Positions 306 to 6,752 of a stretch of 64,000 nucleotides of DNA are shown in pieces. The translations under genes were made by a program, and so were the position numbers. Each line of letters opens with the position of its first letter. Within the stretch, counting starts at the first letter, position 1. The notes under the pieces are model-generated. The model had not been told where the DNA came from. It searched no databases and was given only the letters and a program-made list of their open reading frames with translations. This DNA comes from Sphingopyxis sp. JAI108. Its GTDB lineage: Bacteria; Pseudomonadota; Alphaproteobacteria; Sphingomonadales; Sphingomonadaceae. The stretch spans positions 1,798,001 to 1,862,000 of the forward strand of contig NZ_JACCCJ010000001.1 in NCBI RefSeq assembly GCF_013410105.1. Reading direction: 5' to 3'.

Positions 306-423
306 CGGCTTTGCGCTAGACCTTCCGCCTGCTTTGCCGCATATTGCTTTCAAGAAGAAGGTCTTGAAAGCCGGAAAACCGGCACCGTACCCGCGGTTGT
401 ACCGCCAAAAACAGGAGGCAAAT

Positions 424-927
424 GTGTCCGATAAAAACCAGAATCTCCAAGATATTTTCCTCAACGCCCTTCGCAAGAGCAAAACCCCGGTGACCATGTT
501 CCTGGTCAAGGGTGTCAAGCTGCAGGGCATCATCACCTGGTTCGACAATTTCTCATTGCTCCTCCGCCGCGACGGGCAGTCGCAGCTGGTGTATAAGCAT
601 GCGATCTCGACCGTGATGCCGTCGCATGATTTCGACTTGTCGCTGCTCGGCGACAATCTGCGCGACGCGCCGGCGAGCAAGGGCAAGGCGTTGCAGGACG
701 TTTTCCTGAACGCGGTTCGCCGGTCGGACGAATCGGTCACGATGTTCCTCGTCAACGGCGTGATGCTGCAGGGCGATATCGTCGCGTTCGACCTGTTCTG
801 CATGTTGCTCGAGCGCGAGCGGCAGGTGCAGCTTGTCTACAAGCACGCGATTTCGACCGTTCAGCCGAACGGGCCGATCAACCTGACCGACAATGGCGAG
901 GGTGACGGCGAAGCGGACGACACCTGA
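424..927 (+). CDS. hfq: Tandem-domain RNA chaperone Hfq
   Basis: Encodes 167 residues, about twice a normal Hfq. Two Sm-type domains follow each other: residues about 7–66 and 89–147. Each has the LQD-x-FLNA start with a basic rim (ALRKSK, AVRRSD), an Sm1 strand region (TMFLV…LQG) and an intact Sm2 motif [10 protein letters not shown] linker of about 22 residues separates them, and the acidic tail ([11 protein letters not shown]) resembles the disordered end of other Hfq proteins. The start is a GTG at 424 with AGGAGG at 413–418 five bases upstream; the ATG at 334 has no such site. Hfq pairs small RNAs with mRNAs and normally forms a hexameric ring. A protein with two domains per chain could form a six-fold ring from three chains; that is inference. 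hflX follows directly. Confidence 0.93.
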
Positions 928-2288: not shown

Positions 2289-3039
2289 CCGCCAGCCAGT
2301 GATCTTCTTGCGCATCAAGCGACAGGTCTGCGATGCTCCCGCCGGCCCGATCTTCCATCGCCGCAAAGCGTCGGGCGAATTTCAGATTGGCGTCGCGTAG
2401 CGCGCTTTCCGCATCGACGCCCAGCTTGCGTGCATAGTTTACGACCGCGAACAAAAGGTCGCCGACTTCCTCGTGGCGCTCGGCTTCGTTCGCTGCATTC
2501 GCCACCTCGGCCAATTCTTCGGCGATCTTGTCGCGTGGACCGTCGACGTCGGGCCAGTCGAAACCGACGCGCGCGGCGCGGCCTTGCAGCTTTTGGGCGC
2601 GGAGCAAGGCGGGTAGCGACAGCGCGACACCTGCCAACGCACCACTTGGCCCTTCGGCGGCGCGTTCATCGGCCTTGATTGCTTCCCATTGCTTGCGGAC
2701 ATCGTCGGTCTCGCCGTTGCCGAAGATGTGCGGATGGCGGCGTTCCATCTTGTCGCTGATCGCATCGGCGACGTCGTCGAAGCCGAAAAGGCCGTCGTCG
2801 GTCGCGATCTGGCTATGGAACACGACCTGGAGCAGAAGGTCGCCGAGTTCGTCGCGGATCGCGGCAGGATCGCCGCCGGCGATCGCGTCGGAAACCTCAT
2901 AGGCTTCCTCGATCGTATAAGGTGCAATCGTCGAGAAGTTTTGCGCGAGATCCCATTCGCAACCGCCGTCCGGATTGCGGAGCTGGCGCATGATTCCGAG
3001 CAGACGGTCGATGGGGGATTGGTTTGCCGTGTCAGGCAT
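2266..3039 (-). CDS. mazG: Nucleoside triphosphate pyrophosphohydrolase MazG
   Basis: Encodes 257 residues with the two tandem MazG domains of the full-length enzyme. The first has YTIEEAYEV and DELGDLLLQVVFH; the second has IAEELAEV and EEVGDLLFAVVN. The Glu/Asp residues in these helices bind magnesium. MazG hydrolyses NTPs and dNTPs to monophosphates, cleaning non-canonical nucleotides and possibly tuning ppGpp-related responses. It is transcribed against hflX and overlaps its 3' end. An AT-rich palindrome lies just upstream of its start. Confidence 0.93.
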   Translation of the reverse strand: MPDTANQSPIDRLLGIMRQLRNPDGGCEWDLAQNFSTIAPYTIEEAYEVSDAIAGGDPAAIRDELGDLLLQVVFHSQIATDDGLFGFDDVADAISDKMERRHPHIFGNGETDDVRKQWEAIKADERAAEGPSGALAGVALSLPALLRAQKLQGRAARVGFDWPDVDGPRDKIAEELAEVANAANEAERHEEVGDLLFAVVNYARKLGVDAESALRDANLKFARRFAAMEDRAGGSIADLSLDAQEDHWLAVKASERR

Positions 3040-3050
3040 ATGTTTATCCG

Positions 3051-3064
3051 ATAATATATATTAT
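3051..3064. promoter_or_regulatory. AT-only palindrome upstream of mazG
   Basis: ATAATATATATTAT is a perfect 14-base palindrome in a genome of roughly 64% GC. It ends 12 bases before the mazG start codon on the minus strand. It may contain the -10 region of the mazG promoter or be an operator; sequence alone cannot decide. Confidence 0.3.
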
Positions 3065-3212
3065 GTTAAATCATAGAATGGTCCCCGCGTTTGGCAGACC
3101 GACTTCCACTCACCAAATTGCAGAAACGTCATATTGCGCGTCTAAGATCGCTCTATGCGGCAGTAAAGCCCAGTGGACCTGTTTTGGCGAGTTCCAGTTC
3201 CCAAGACTCTCC

Positions 3213-3236
3213 GACAAATCCTATCGGGGATTTGTC
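3213..3236 (-). terminator. Hairpin at the end of the anti-sigma gene
   Basis: GACAAATCC and GGATTTGTC form a nine-base-pair stem with a six-base loop, spanning the anti-sigma stop codon at 3221. No T-run follows, so it is a weak intrinsic terminator or an mRNA 3'-end stabilising hairpin for the sigma/anti-sigma operon. Confidence 0.4.
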
Positions 3237-3934
3237 CATCCCGCGTCCCGCGCCGCTCGTTCGCTCTGAGCATCAAGTGGATCGCGTTTCATCATGGCCG
3301 CTGCCGCGCCAGCAAGTTCGCCCGATGAGGCTTGCCGGTAATCGCCGCGGGCTTGGCCCGGAAGCGTCCTTTCGATCTGCCATCGACCATCCTCGCGGCA
3401 ACCGATTCCATTGACCGGACGGCTTTCGAAGCTGCGGCAATAGCGACCGGTATTGTCCTCGAAACTGAGCACGATACGGATCGGGGCATCGTCACGCTGG
3501 CTCGACGCGAGCTGTGTATCGAGCGCTGCGGCGAGCGATCCCGCCGCGACCAGAGCGCCGTTGTCGATTGTCACATCGGCGGCCGGCGCCCAAGGGCGCA
3601 GTCCGATTGTCAGGCCGAGCACCAGCGAAGCCGCAATGGCGCTCCAATGAACGCCGCTGAAGTATGTGAAGCGCGCGCCTCTGACGCTGCGGCGATCGGC
3701 CAAGCTCGTATCGACCTTGTCATCAACCGCGAGCAGCGACCGGAGTCGTTCGGGAACGGCCTCTTCCGCAATGGGAGCATAATGCCCGGTCAGCCGCGCT
3801 TTGAGCGCGCGATGGCGTGCGATCTCCGCCGCGAGTGCTGCATCGTTGGCTGCCTCGCGCTCAATCCGGCGTGCGGTCAGATCGTCGAGTTCGCCGTCGA
3901 CAAAAGCAGCGACGGTGGCGGGATCAAAGCTCAT
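3221..3934 (-). CDS. Membrane-bound anti-sigma factor for the adjacent ECF sigma
   Basis: Encodes 237 residues. The N-terminal AAFVDGELDD region (residues 9–18) is the typical start of cytoplasmic anti-sigma domains. One membrane helix lies at about residues 96–115 (SAIAASLVLGLTIGL), leaving a periplasmic domain of about 120 residues. No HxxxCxxC zinc motif is present, so it is not a ZAS-type factor. Its ATG overlaps the sigma stop codon (ATGA at 3931–3934), so the two are translationally coupled. By position it should hold the sigma factor inactive until an envelope signal arrives; regulated proteolysis of the membrane domain would be the family norm but is not shown here. Confidence 0.85.
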   Translation of the reverse strand: MSFDPATVAAFVDGELDDLTARRIEREAANDAALAAEIARHRALKARLTGHYAPIAEEAVPERLRSLLAVDDKVDTSLADRRSVRGARFTYFSGVHWSAIAASLVLGLTIGLRPWAPAADVTIDNGALVAAGSLAAALDTQLASSQRDDAPIRIVLSFEDNTGRYCRSFESRPVNGIGCREDGRWQIERTLPGQARGDYRQASSGELAGAAAAMMKRDPLDAQSERAARDAGWTNPR

Positions 3935-4419
3935 GCCGCTTCTCCAAGATAGAACATCAGGGCTTCGCGCCCCCGCGCAAGGCGCGAGGTCACGGTACCG
4001 ACCGCCACATCGAGCATCTCCGCGGCTTCGCGATAGGCATAGCCTTCGACAAGCACGAGCATCACGACTTCGCGCTGTTCGTCGGGAAGCCGGGCCATTG
4101 CGCCGTCGACATCGCCACGGAGCGCCCCTGCCTCGACCTCGGAGGCGCCCTCGCCCGCGACCTGTGTGACTGCGTCGTCGATTGGCGCATGAACACCGCG
4201 CCGGCCCGCGGCGCGGCGTTCGTCGATCCAGAGATTGCGGGTGATGCGGTACATCCAGCTGTCCAGTCTCGTTCCTTGTTGCCATTGATCGCGCGATTTC
4301 AGCGCGCGTTCGATCGCGGCCTGGCACAAATCGTCGGCATCGCTCTGATGGCGCGCCAATCCGCGCGCGAACCGGCGCAGGCGCGGCAATAATTCGACCA
4401 GTTCCTCTTCGAAGCGCAT
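3931..4419 (-). CDS. ECF-type RNA polymerase sigma factor
   Basis: Encodes 162 residues. Region 2 is at about 8–70 (FARGL…DADDLCQAA…WMYRITRNLWID) and region 4 at about 108–155 (LPDEQREVV…EGYAYREAAEMLDVAVGTVTSRL). The start at 4419 is preferred over the ATG at 4476, because a GGAAG–N17–CGTT promoter motif on this strand begins inside the first codons of the longer version, so the transcript should begin downstream of 4476. The gene is divergent from the secreted protease at 4543 and shares a palindromic promoter with it, which suggests autoregulation. The anti-sigma gene follows with an ATGA overlap. Confidence 0.9.
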   Translation of the reverse strand: MRFEEELVELLPRLRRFARGLARHQSDADDLCQAAIERALKSRDQWQQGTRLDSWMYRITRNLWIDERRAAGRRGVHAPIDDAVTQVAGEGASEVEAGALRGDVDGAMARLPDEQREVVMLVLVEGYAYREAAEMLDVAVGTVTSRLARGREALMFYLGEAA

Positions 4420-4442
4420 ATTCGCCTTTTCGCTGTGTCTGA

Positions 4443-4474
4443 GGAAGAAACGACGCCACTCTATCGTTTCTTCC
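4443..4474. promoter_or_regulatory. Bidirectional palindromic ECF promoter
   Basis: On the plus strand GGAAG (4443–4447) is followed by 17 bases and CGTT (4465–4468). On the minus strand the same motif appears with the same spacing: GGAAG at 4474–4470 and CGTT at 4452–4449. The outer ten bases on each side (GGAAGAAACG / CGTTTCTTCC) are perfect inverted repeats. This matches the GGAAC–N16/17–CGTT layout of alphaproteobacterial ECF promoters except for the fifth base. It would fire both the sigma operon and the protease gene. Confidence 0.72.
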
Positions 4475-4542
4475 ATGGCATGCTAAATTTTTCGGGCGCG
4501 GCTGGTTCGCCGCCTTCGCCCCCGCCGATATGAGGAGTTTCA

Positions 4543-5811
4543 ATGCGCGCCTTGATCGCCCTGCCCATGATGCTCTCGCTTCTCTCCGCCGGGATCGCTG
4601 CGCATGCCGATGCCCAGATCGCATTGCCACCGGTCCAGCTTCCCGATGCCGCGCGCACCCTGCCCTCGCTGCCGGACATCAGCAGCGAGCCGCTCGTCGC
4701 TGTGCGCAATACGCTCGCGCAGTTGCGAATCGACCGGATCGCCGCGCTGCTCCGGGACAATCGCGACCGCATCGAACCCGACCGCGACGGCCAGCCCGCA
4801 GTGCGCGGCATAGTCGTGGCAACGGGTGTCGACGAAGCGATGATCGCGCGCGCGGCCAAGGAAGGGTTCCGGCTGATCGACCGCGAGCTTGTCGAAGGCA
4901 TCGACCTCGACATAGCTCGCTTTGCGGTTCCTGAAGGGAACAGCCTCGCTCGCGCGCAAAAGAAGCTTTCCAAGCTTCTGCCCGAGGCCGAAGTCGATGC
5001 CGATCATATCTATTTCACAAGCGGTCCCGGTGGGACTCTTTCGGCCACGGCATTGGCGATGGCGGCGACGCCCGGCCAAGCCCGGCTCGGATTGATCGAC
5101 GGCGGGGTTGCTGCGCATCCGTCGGTCGCCGGTCGCGTCGAGCAGCGCGGCTTCGCGGCTGGTGCGCCTTACGCCAGCCGCCACGGCACCGCCGTGGCAT
5201 CGCTGCTCATCGGCAGCGGATCGGTTCGGGGGGCGGCTTCCGGGCAGCGGCTCCTGGCGGCCGACGTCTATGGCACCGATCCGGCGGGTGGGAACGCAAG
5301 CGCCATTGCGCGCGCACTGGGCTGGTTGGTACAGCGCGGCGCCGCGGTGACGACGATCAGCCTTGTCGGGCCCGACAACAAGCTGCTGGCGAGCGCCGTA
5401 TCGCGCGCGCAGCAGCGCGGCATGTTGATCGTCGCCGCGGTCGGCAACGACGGCCCGGCCGCTCCGCCCGCCTATCCCGCTTCCTATAAGGGCGTGTTTG
5501 CGGTGACCGGCGTCGATGCAAGGAATCGCGTCTTGCCCGAGGCGGGCCGGACGCAACACATCGACTTCGCTGCGCCGGGCGATGCCGTGCTTGCCGCGAC
5601 CGACGTCGATACGACCGACCGCCTGCGTGGCACCTCATTCGCCGCGCCGCTCGTCGGCGGACGCCTTGCCCTTCGCTACCCGGCACCGGCGATCGACCGG
5701 ATCGGGCCGGCGGTATCCGCGCTGGTTTTCGAAGCCCGCGATCTCGGCAAGAAGGGCCGCGATAAGATTTACGGTCACGGGCTCATTTGCGGAGATTGCG
5801 GCCGTCGCTGA
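4543..5811 (+). CDS. Secreted S8 (subtilisin-like) serine protease
   Basis: Encodes 422 residues. A signal peptide covers about 1–24 (MRALIALPMMLSLLSAG…ADAQ). Residues about 50–160 look like a propeptide-type region. The S8 catalytic domain starts near 180: Asp186 in LIDGGV, His214 in RHGTAVAS, oxyanion-hole Asn302 in AVGNDGP, and Ser365 in GTSFAAP, so the triad is complete. The chain ends in a CGDCGRR tail. GAGGAG precedes the ATG. Lying divergent from an ECF sigma operon with a shared promoter, it is probably a target of that sigma. Its substrate is unknown; the secreted Gly-rich protein downstream or the anti-sigma periplasmic domain are candidates. Confidence 0.9.
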   Translation: MRALIALPMMLSLLSAGIAAHADAQIALPPVQLPDAARTLPSLPDISSEPLVAVRNTLAQLRIDRIAALLRDNRDRIEPDRDGQPAVRGIVVATGVDEAMIARAAKEGFRLIDRELVEGIDLDIARFAVPEGNSLARAQKKLSKLLPEAEVDADHIYFTSGPGGTLSATALAMAATPGQARLGLIDGGVAAHPSVAGRVEQRGFAAGAPYASRHGTAVASLLIGSGSVRGAASGQRLLAADVYGTDPAGGNASAIARALGWLVQRGAAVTTISLVGPDNKLLASAVSRAQQRGMLIVAAVGNDGPAAPPAYPASYKGVFAVTGVDARNRVLPEAGRTQHIDFAAPGDAVLAATDVDTTDRLRGTSFAAPLVGGRLALRYPAPAIDRIGPAVSALVFEARDLGKKGRDKIYGHGLICGDCGRR

Positions 5812-5829
5812 CCGGTTTCGAATAATTTC

Positions 5830-5855
5830 GGAAGAAATTCGAACCCGCCATCGTT
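5830..5855 (+). promoter_or_regulatory. ECF promoter of the Gly-rich secreted protein gene
   Basis: GGAAG (5830–5834), a 17-base spacer and CGTT (5852–5855), 48 bases before the ATG at 5904. The element shares GGAAGAAA, the spacing and CGTT with the two motifs in the sigma/protease divergent region. It also sits within an imperfect hairpin (5815–5843). Confidence 0.6.
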
Positions 5856-5903
5856 CTTCCTTCAGGCCCTCCCCTCCGGGCCGCAAGACGAAGGAGAAGG
5901 ATA

Positions 5904-6752
5904 ATGGCACATCGTATTTTCACGCCGGCTCTCGCGCTCGCCGTGTCGAGCATGGCATTTTCGGCCCCCGCTTCGGCGCAGTTGCTCGGCGGTAATGGCG
6001 GACTGAGTGGCGGCTTGGGCGGCACGCTCGGCGGCACGCTCGGCAATCCCACCGGGCCGATCGGCGGGACGCTTGGCACAGCGGGCGATATCACCGGATC
6101 GGGCCGCGGCGAAGCCGATGTCGATCGCCGCTCGGGTCGAGTTCAAGGCAAGGGTCGCGCCGATGCGAATGGCAAGGGTTCAGCCAATGGCGACGCGAAC
6201 CTGCTTGGTCGCACGGTCGGCGGCAACGCCAGCGGCGCGGGCTCCGCATCGGGTAGCGGCAGCCTCGACGCGCAGGCCGTCGGCACCGATTTCGTCGGCC
6301 AGACGGCCCGCGGCGTTGTCGGCACCGCCCGTGACACCGCTTCGACCGCAACCGGCACCGCGCGCGGTGCGGTCGGGACTGTCCGCGATCGGACCAATGG
6401 CGCGCTGTCGGACGTCTCAGGCAGCGCCGCCGCCGCCGGTTCGATCGCGGGCAGCTTCCAGGGTAGCCTGGGCCAGCTCGCAGCCGCGGGCAGCGGCGCC
6501 GCCACCGGCAACGGCATGTTCGCCATCGCGCCGGGCATGCCCGTCACCGATCCGCGCGGCAAGGTGATCGGTTATGTCCAGGAACTGCGCCAGACCGGCA
6601 GCGGGGTCGTCCAGGCCGTGACGGTCGAGGTCGGGGACCGGGTAGCGACCCTTCCCGCCGCCAGCTTCGCCGGCTCGGGCGACGTGCTCGTGACCGGGAT
6701 GACCAAGGGCCAGCTGAAGAAAGCGGCCGAGCAGCAGCAAACCGGCGAGTAA
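5904..6752 (+). CDS. Secreted Gly/Ala-rich protein with possible PRC-barrel-like C-terminus
   Basis: Encodes 282 residues. A signal peptide is at about 1–25 (ending FSAPASAQ). Residues about 27–200 are low-complexity, dominated by Gly, Ala, Ser and Thr, with repeats such as GGTLGGTLG and GTARDTASTATGTARGAVGT. Residues about 209–262 are more ordered (PGMPVTDPRGKVIGYV…VTVEVGDRVATLP) and resemble a PRC-barrel fold; this is a tentative visual match. A strong ribosome-binding site GGAGAAGG precedes the ATG. An upstream promoter motif like that of the ECF operon suggests coregulation. A surface or periplasmic structural role is inference; I do not recognise a named family. Confidence 0.72.
   Translation: MAHRIFTPALALAVSSMAFSAPASAQLLGGNGGLSGGLGGTLGGTLGNPTGPIGGTLGTAGDITGSGRGEADVDRRSGRVQGKGRADANGKGSANGDANLLGRTVGGNASGAGSASGSGSLDAQAVGTDFVGQTARGVVGTARDTASTATGTARGAVGTVRDRTNGALSDVSGSAAAAGSIAGSFQGSLGQLAAAGSGAATGNGMFAIAPGMPVTDPRGKVIGYVQELRQTGSGVVQAVTVEVGDRVATLPAASFAGSGDVLVTGMTKGQLKKAAEQQQTGE

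Follow-up and report, generated by a model that had tools for sequence, protein, structure and literature searches.

The DNA analysed here is a 64,000-nucleotide stretch (the window) of the genome of Sphingopyxis sp. JAI108 (NCBI RefSeq assembly GCF_013410105.1, contig NZ_JACCCJ010000001.1, positions 1,798,001 to 1,862,000), which carries at positions 3221–6752 a module comprised of genes for an extracytoplasmic function (ECF) sigma factor, an anti-sigma factor, a secreted subtilase and a glycine-rich (Gly-rich) protein. Sequence comparison indicates, with a probability that we put at roughly 0.85, that one promoter code wires the sigma operon, the protease gene, the Gly-rich gene and a fifth gene, which encodes a secreted protein of 112 amino acids (aa), into a small and apparently closed ECF sigma regulon. 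All four genes of the module had been proposed in an original prediction made from the letters of the window and were confirmed at the places given there; the fifth gene, which lies elsewhere in the genome, had been missed. The features of the module are as follows.

3221–3934, minus strand: gene for the anti-sigma factor (237 aa; anti-sigma domain followed by a periplasmic part that has two invariant Cys residues)
3931–4419, minus strand: ECF sigma factor gene (162 aa; Sigma70_r2, PF04542, E 3.8e-15; r4_2, PF08281, E 8.2e-15)
4443–4474, both directions: predicted palindromic bidirectional ECF promoter (-35 GGAAGAAA and -10 CGTT each way, interlocked)
4481–4492, no strand assigned: conserved A/T-rich stretch TGCTAAATTTTT, directly upstream of the sigma -35 and within the protease leader
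4543–5811, plus strand: gene for a secreted pro-subtilisin, an S8 protease (422 aa; Peptidase_S8, E 1.8e-23)
5830–5855, plus strand: predicted one-directional promoter of the Gly-rich gene (GGAAGAAA-N13-TCGTT)
5865–5882, plus strand: possible short leader hairpin GGCCC/GGGCC of the Gly-rich mRNA (minor, weakly supported)
5904–6752, plus strand: gene for the Gly-rich secreted protein (282 aa; possible C-terminal PRC-barrel-like domain)

The original prediction linked the genes by one promoter motif, GGAAG-N17-CGTT, and this motif occurs exactly three times in the 64 kb, each time where it had been placed (3 observed versus 0.50 expected; 1 of 100 shuffles reaches 3). The two copies in the divergent gap between the sigma and protease genes are not independent, as they are the two strands of one palindrome. 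The palindrome is a perfect 11-bp inverted repeat, GGAAGAAACGA-N10-TCGTTTCTTCC, that spans 32 bp (4443–4474); the two CGTT boxes in it do not coincide but stand 12 bp from each other, and each -10 overlaps the opposite -35. A sigma open reading frame (ORF) begun at the listed ATG 4476 would enclose its own promoter, so the start is better placed at ATG 4419, which is kept in 25/25 aligned Sphingopyxis loci with GCCTTT (coding strand AAAGGC) upstream in most. Within TGCTAAATTTTT, a possible UP-like element, TGCTA is present in all 25 of these loci and TGATA in two more (L155 and L156); a TG-TTAA-like counterpart was seen by eye in some other genera. The leader hairpin keeps its 5 pairs in 16/16 sequences selected from the 25, with one compensatory change, but this does not exceed the shuffles, of which 70 of 500 score as well.

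The conservation of gene order and motif in other sphingomonads, which the original prediction had left as a check, was borne out both within the genus and beyond it. In a genus set of 36 genomes, JAI108 included, a protease orthologue (69% identity or more) was present in 25, and all 25 have the sigma, anti-sigma and Gly-rich genes beside it in the same order, the Gly-rich match of L046 being cut by a contig end. The palindrome core is found in 25/25 of these loci; some, L029, L032, L038, L045, L049 and L050 among them, deviate from it in places. The Gly-rich promoter site is kept with small changes across the aligned loci. A close sigma orthologue was not found (best match 46% identity) in 20 genomes picked because the protease or most of the motif sites are missing, six of which are less than 90% complete or more than 5% contaminated.

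Beyond the genus we analysed loci from named genomes, the best 80 of at least 365 protease relatives as ranked by protease match. The sigma and anti-sigma genes are divergent from the protease gene in 80/80, with the anti-sigma match adjoining the sigma in every case; because of the ranking, this describes the closest relatives of the protease and not all S8 proteases. The set spans Sphingobium, Sphingomonas, Novosphingobium, Erythrobacter, Qipengyuania and Croceicoccus, and it reaches outside the sphingomonads to one Caulobacter metagenome-assembled genome (MAG) and four gammaproteobacterial records, which the earlier reading of the window had missed. Downstream of the protease, 79/80 loci have a Gly-rich match or ORF (the exception is L224). 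In 61 of these the match comes from tblastn (E 0.01, low-complexity filtering disabled), which is weak evidence for a protein of this kind; in 18 of the remaining 19 loci the next ORF was read instead. L172 and L218 match the Gly-rich protein only in its C-terminal part. The 112-aa gene lies near the cassette in 12/80.

A strict form of the motif, GGA[AT][GT]AA-N15-CGTT, was counted at three places in the 80 named loci, the downstream place being the 300 bases that begin 60 short of where the protease match ends and reach 240 past it. It faces the sigma gene in 76 loci and the protease gene in 70 (both in 70), and it is present downstream of the protease in 65. When gap lengths of 10 to 19 were tried, 211 of the 215 matches at these places had a gap of 15, and the flanks yielded a background of 8 strict matches at this gap in 1,297,238 bases, both strands included, some of which may be real promoters of the 112-aa gene. 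The four gammaproteobacterial loci carry a looser form, GGA[AT]NNA-N15-CG[TA]N with CGTA or CGTC, that was counted without a background; it faces the sigma gene in 4/4, lies downstream in three and faces the protease in two (one of them weak), and these boxes stand at separate places, none overlapping.

The same counts bear on whether the palindrome is instead an operator for a dimeric transcription factor over the divergent pair, its likeness to an ECF promoter being secondary. Dimeric regulators bind sites of this kind, near-perfect dyads whose spacing is fixed and whose centre is free, and the Gly-rich site in the window is itself partly symmetric (GGAAGAA/TTCTTCC). Such partial symmetry, however, is present in 4/25 Sphingopyxis loci (L026–L029). 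The principal test between promoter and operator is given by the downstream sites, where the strict motif has an opposite-strand copy at 0/65: genes read in one direction have sites of one direction, and it is the divergent gap that holds the palindrome. Each arm, moreover, splits into a -35 and a reverse-complemented -10, and no other regulator gene was seen conserved with the module, among neighbours that were not all surveyed. Because none of the 65 downstream sites is bidirectional, the palindrome reads as two superposed promoters rather than as an operator, and we regard the operator explanation as quite improbable.

The palindrome also leads back to the module when it is used as the starting point. 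In the family, a strict palindrome pattern is present in 75/298 genomes and in 37/96 genera sampled, and its control matches nowhere; 74 of the genomes have a single copy and one (G325) has two. These counts miss variants such as G002, which holds the module with altered arms and scores none. In a sample of the phylum it was found in 10/398 genomes, eight within the family and two outside. Sigma and protease matches lie on opposite sides of it in 9/9 loci fetched from the phylum scan, one of which (L301) belongs to a genome already studied, and 5/5 loci picked from the family scan have a sigma on one side and a protease on the other. Wherever the alphaproteobacterial module occurs in our set the palindrome is nearly base-for-base constant, normally once per genome.

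Additional copies were also seen. G325 has two modules, each with its own palindrome (L304 and L305). Genome G033 has a second cassette (L128) in which the protease matches in pieces only and a Gly-rich-type ORF of 451 aa retains an intact promoter motif. L061 is a second sigma/anti-sigma copy, apparently frameshifted (ORFs 3223–3753 and 2347–3159); its palindrome (3512–3543; genome C1:2271511-2271542) has intact 7-base outer arms and one CGTT box changed to CGGT, and the opposite ORF resembles, by eye, a PAS/histidine kinase.

The size of the regulon was estimated from genome-wide searches. The short motif GGAAG-N17-CGTT, which had been suggested as the probe for such a search, failed in this role: in the 4.05-Mb genome it gave 25 matches versus 43 for its reversed control, and it was rejected. 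The extended form GGAANAAA-N13-TCGTT gave 4 matches and 0 for the control, and summed over 60 genus genomes searched it gave 156 versus 11. Three of the four sites in the genome are at the module, and the fourth (C1:711831) has a CGTT that ends 38 bases 5' of the start of the gene for the 112-aa secreted protein, for which no Pfam or NCBIfam family was found at E 0.05. The corresponding GGAT form places 3/3, 3/3, 3/4 and 3/4 of its sites at the module in four module genomes of other genera. As a probe across 60 genomes of the order it matched 34, some with control matches as well, and was set aside as unspecific outside module-bearing genomes; in many of the 34 no search for the module was made.

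The fate of the 112-aa promoter in Sphingopyxis genomes with and without the sigma gene offers a further line of evidence. The gene was searched by protein and not by motif. Its promoter is intact in 21 of 22 sigma-bearing genomes (24 searched, one without the gene and one with a fragment only) versus 6 of 12 sigma-less genomes (20 searched, 8 without the gene), and the first G of the -35 is changed in all six sigma-less genomes that lost it. The difference has a Fisher p of 0.004, which ignores descent, so that the six losses may be fewer events.

The promoters of the module also shift together. The fourth base of the -35 is A at 52/52 strict sites of 17 loci (16 titled Sphingopyxis and one Sphingomonadales MAG) and T at 167/167 strict sites of all other loci, and this uniformity across the sites within each group indicates that the promoters change jointly. 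Twelve positions of the sigma factor separate the GGAA and GGAT groups, two of them in the region-4 recognition helix, which was placed by eye. Residue 143 is V or I in the Sphingopyxis group versus mostly L in the others, and residue 148, which by comparison with E. coli sigmaE would face the -35, is A in 18/18 of the Sphingopyxis group and V in 50/59 of the others. Outside the group, L165 comes closest in sigma identity, and it combines L143 and V148 with GGATG. A148 is also present in all four gammaproteobacterial sigmas and in the sigma that accompanies one of two further GGAA palindromes from other genera.

Several observations weigh against a single closed regulon read by one sigma. Among the 80 named loci the strict motif is absent downstream of the protease in 15 and facing the protease in 10. 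Sphingomonas YR710 (L221) combines A148 with GGAT sites, and the other of the two further GGAA palindromes (L303) has a sigma with L148, which makes residue 148 an incomplete code. Exclusive control is seriously challenged by the six intact 112-aa promoters in sigma-less Sphingopyxis genomes, and no intact copy is present in L289, a sigma-bearing genome; another sigma may thus also read this promoter. The relation between the Gly-rich protein and the protease is guilt by association. Finally, the module may be related in some degree to the EcfG system: the PhyR sigma2 model recognizes the sigma as well (1.6e-13), and in an alignment of 47 anti-sigmas nine members match NepR at E 0.01 (best 7.6e-08) and four match RseA_N, matches that may reflect common short helices or distant kinship. 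Among seven locus proteins no PhyR-like Pfam match was found besides the sigma itself.

Could the general stress sigma EcfG then read these promoters, with the local sigma a minor player? Its motif, GGAAC-N16-CGTT (PMC7083833), is similar, and the six sigma-less genomes that retain the 112-aa promoter would fit. Yet in S. granuli TFA the AAC of the -35 is nearly invariant (3/79 mismatched; PMC7083833). The sites of the module instead have G or T at base 5 and a gap of 17, and their motif goes with the local sigma and shifts when that sigma does. We therefore consider this explanation highly improbable, and control of the module promoters by the local sigma is well supported by the comparisons above.

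The proteins are of recognizable kinds. The sigma factor holds sigma2 and sigma4 domains in one small protein, as ECF sigmas do. The model of the anti-sigma (predicted local distance difference test score, pLDDT, 87) has an anti-sigma-like N-terminus of the RslA/MucA type, a helix (97–111) that is likely a membrane segment, and a periplasmic domain with invariant C166 and C179, for which no Foldseek match was found at E 0.001 and a second look gave weak, mixed rows. The protease model (pLDDT 86) consists of a helix, a prodomain of beta-alpha-beta-beta-alpha-beta order and a subtilisin domain joined by a low-confidence link (162–177); from the order of strands and helices an I9-like prodomain is placed at about 77–156; the catalytic domain spans about 178–420. 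Its best Foldseek match is unprocessed pro-subtilisin E (E 1.3e-18, TM 0.60 by query, 378 columns). D186, H214 and S365 are invariant in 47 aligned members, and C416 and C419, which form a C-terminal CxxC, are nearly so; the catalytic D, H and S together with the prodomain fold place the enzyme among S8 proteases with an I9-like prodomain. Of 37 aligned members of the Gly-rich family, 15 match PRC (PF05239) at E 0.01, a threshold that the window protein misses at 0.038, and one relative (L188:7153-8108, plus strand) ends in an OmpA domain (2.5e-21), which hints at a cell-envelope location of the family; together with a signal peptide, this makes a surface protein plausible. Signal peptides of the protease, the Gly-rich protein and the 112-aa protein were judged by inspection. 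Elsewhere in the window, positions 334–924 (plus strand) encode an Hfq-type RNA chaperone whose single chain contains two Hfq domains in tandem (NCBIfam PRK14091).

In the mechanism we propose, the membrane anti-sigma would hold the sigma, by analogy with its family, until an envelope signal frees it; the original prediction proposed its periplasmic domain as the sensor. The holoenzyme would then read a -35 of GGA[A/T][G/T]AAA and a -10 of CGTT, with 17 bases between GGA[A/T][G/T] and CGTT as judged from conservation, and the freed sigma would activate the sigma/anti-sigma operon and the genes for the secreted pro-subtilisin, for the Gly-rich protein and for the 112-aa secreted protein. At the palindrome the holoenzyme would sit in one of two orientations, presumably exclusive, serving either the sigma and anti-sigma genes or the protease gene; each -35 overlaps the -10 of the other promoter, so by geometry one holoenzyme could start either way and not both at once. 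The Gly-rich and 112-aa promoters would fire alongside. As one site serves both directions, amplification of the sigma would be coupled to protease output, and the orientation of the polymerase would amount to a built-in competition. That the palindrome is a regulatory device, in which this competition fixes the sigma/protease ratio and brakes runaway autoactivation, is a proposal to which we give slightly less than even odds.

Two roles are conceivable for the protease. The products of the regulon might assemble, trim or guard a Gly-rich layer of the envelope, the protease acting as the processing enzyme, a suggestion that we consider rather doubtful. The protease could also be the site-1 protease of its own anti-sigma, cutting the periplasmic domain in a positive feedback, which would be compatible with the single promoter code: the neighbourhood is kept in 80/80 named loci, though these were found by the protease, and the periplasmic domain of the anti-sigma could be within reach of a secreted pro-enzyme. 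DegS, the site-1 protease that has been described, is however an inner-membrane protein (PMC8103513), whereas the protease here has, by inspection, a signal peptide only; the Gly-rich protein is equally consistent as a substrate. A site-1 role thus appears unlikely.

Compared with RpoE/RseA, AlgU/MucA and SigL/RslA, the module likewise has a sigma2-sigma4 protein, an adjacent anti-sigma with an RslA/MucA-like N-terminus and a GGAA-CGT-type promoter facing the sigma. Unlike these systems, it apparently has only four promoters in the genome, and its sigma operon and secreted subtilase share one palindromic promoter. The bidirectional promoters of E. coli (Warman et al., PMC12825309) likewise engage RNA polymerase through symmetric DNA in two exclusive orientations; they have a common symmetric -10, with starts most often 18 and also 10 or 23 bp apart, and show no competition at basal activity, although strong activation one way represses the other. 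In the module, by contrast, each -10 overlaps the opposite -35 rather than being shared, a position 7 bases outside each box would put the outward starts about 33 bp from one another, the sigma is an ECF factor, and a near-perfect symmetry is retained from genus to genus. ECF54 (PMC8999054) is likewise an ECF sigma whose conserved gene context includes subtilase proteins; that context has no anti-sigma, whereas here an anti-sigma match stands beside the sigma in 80/80 named loci. The EcfG/NepR/PhyR general stress response (PMC7083833, PMC8103513) also involves an alphaproteobacterial ECF sigma with a CGTT -10, and the module differs in its GGA[A/T][G/T]-N17 motif of one gap length and in an adjacent 237-aa anti-sigma with a predicted membrane helix. 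Finally, the protease shares prodomain, catalytic domain, triad and fold with pro-subtilisins, and differs in its C-terminal CxxC, the divergent ECF sigma and the Gly-rich partner downstream. By title and the start of the abstract, no description of the module, or of a near-perfect palindromic ECF promoter serving a sigma and its target, was found among the matches listed. The sigma may already have an ECF group number, and its subtilase context may have been noted in the ECF group catalogue, which lay outside the literature search. Each component is of a known kind, and the conserved interlocked bidirectional ECF promoter is the new aspect.

For the sphingomonads these findings mean that a very small, nearly complete ECF regulon is predictable from sequence in many genera. 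The protease, the Gly-rich protein and the 112-aa protein, for which we found no assigned role, become a candidate functional set. The joint shift of promoter base and recognition-helix residue provides a natural experiment on ECF promoter specificity, and through the symmetry of the promoter, competition between orientations becomes open to a direct test with an alternative sigma factor.

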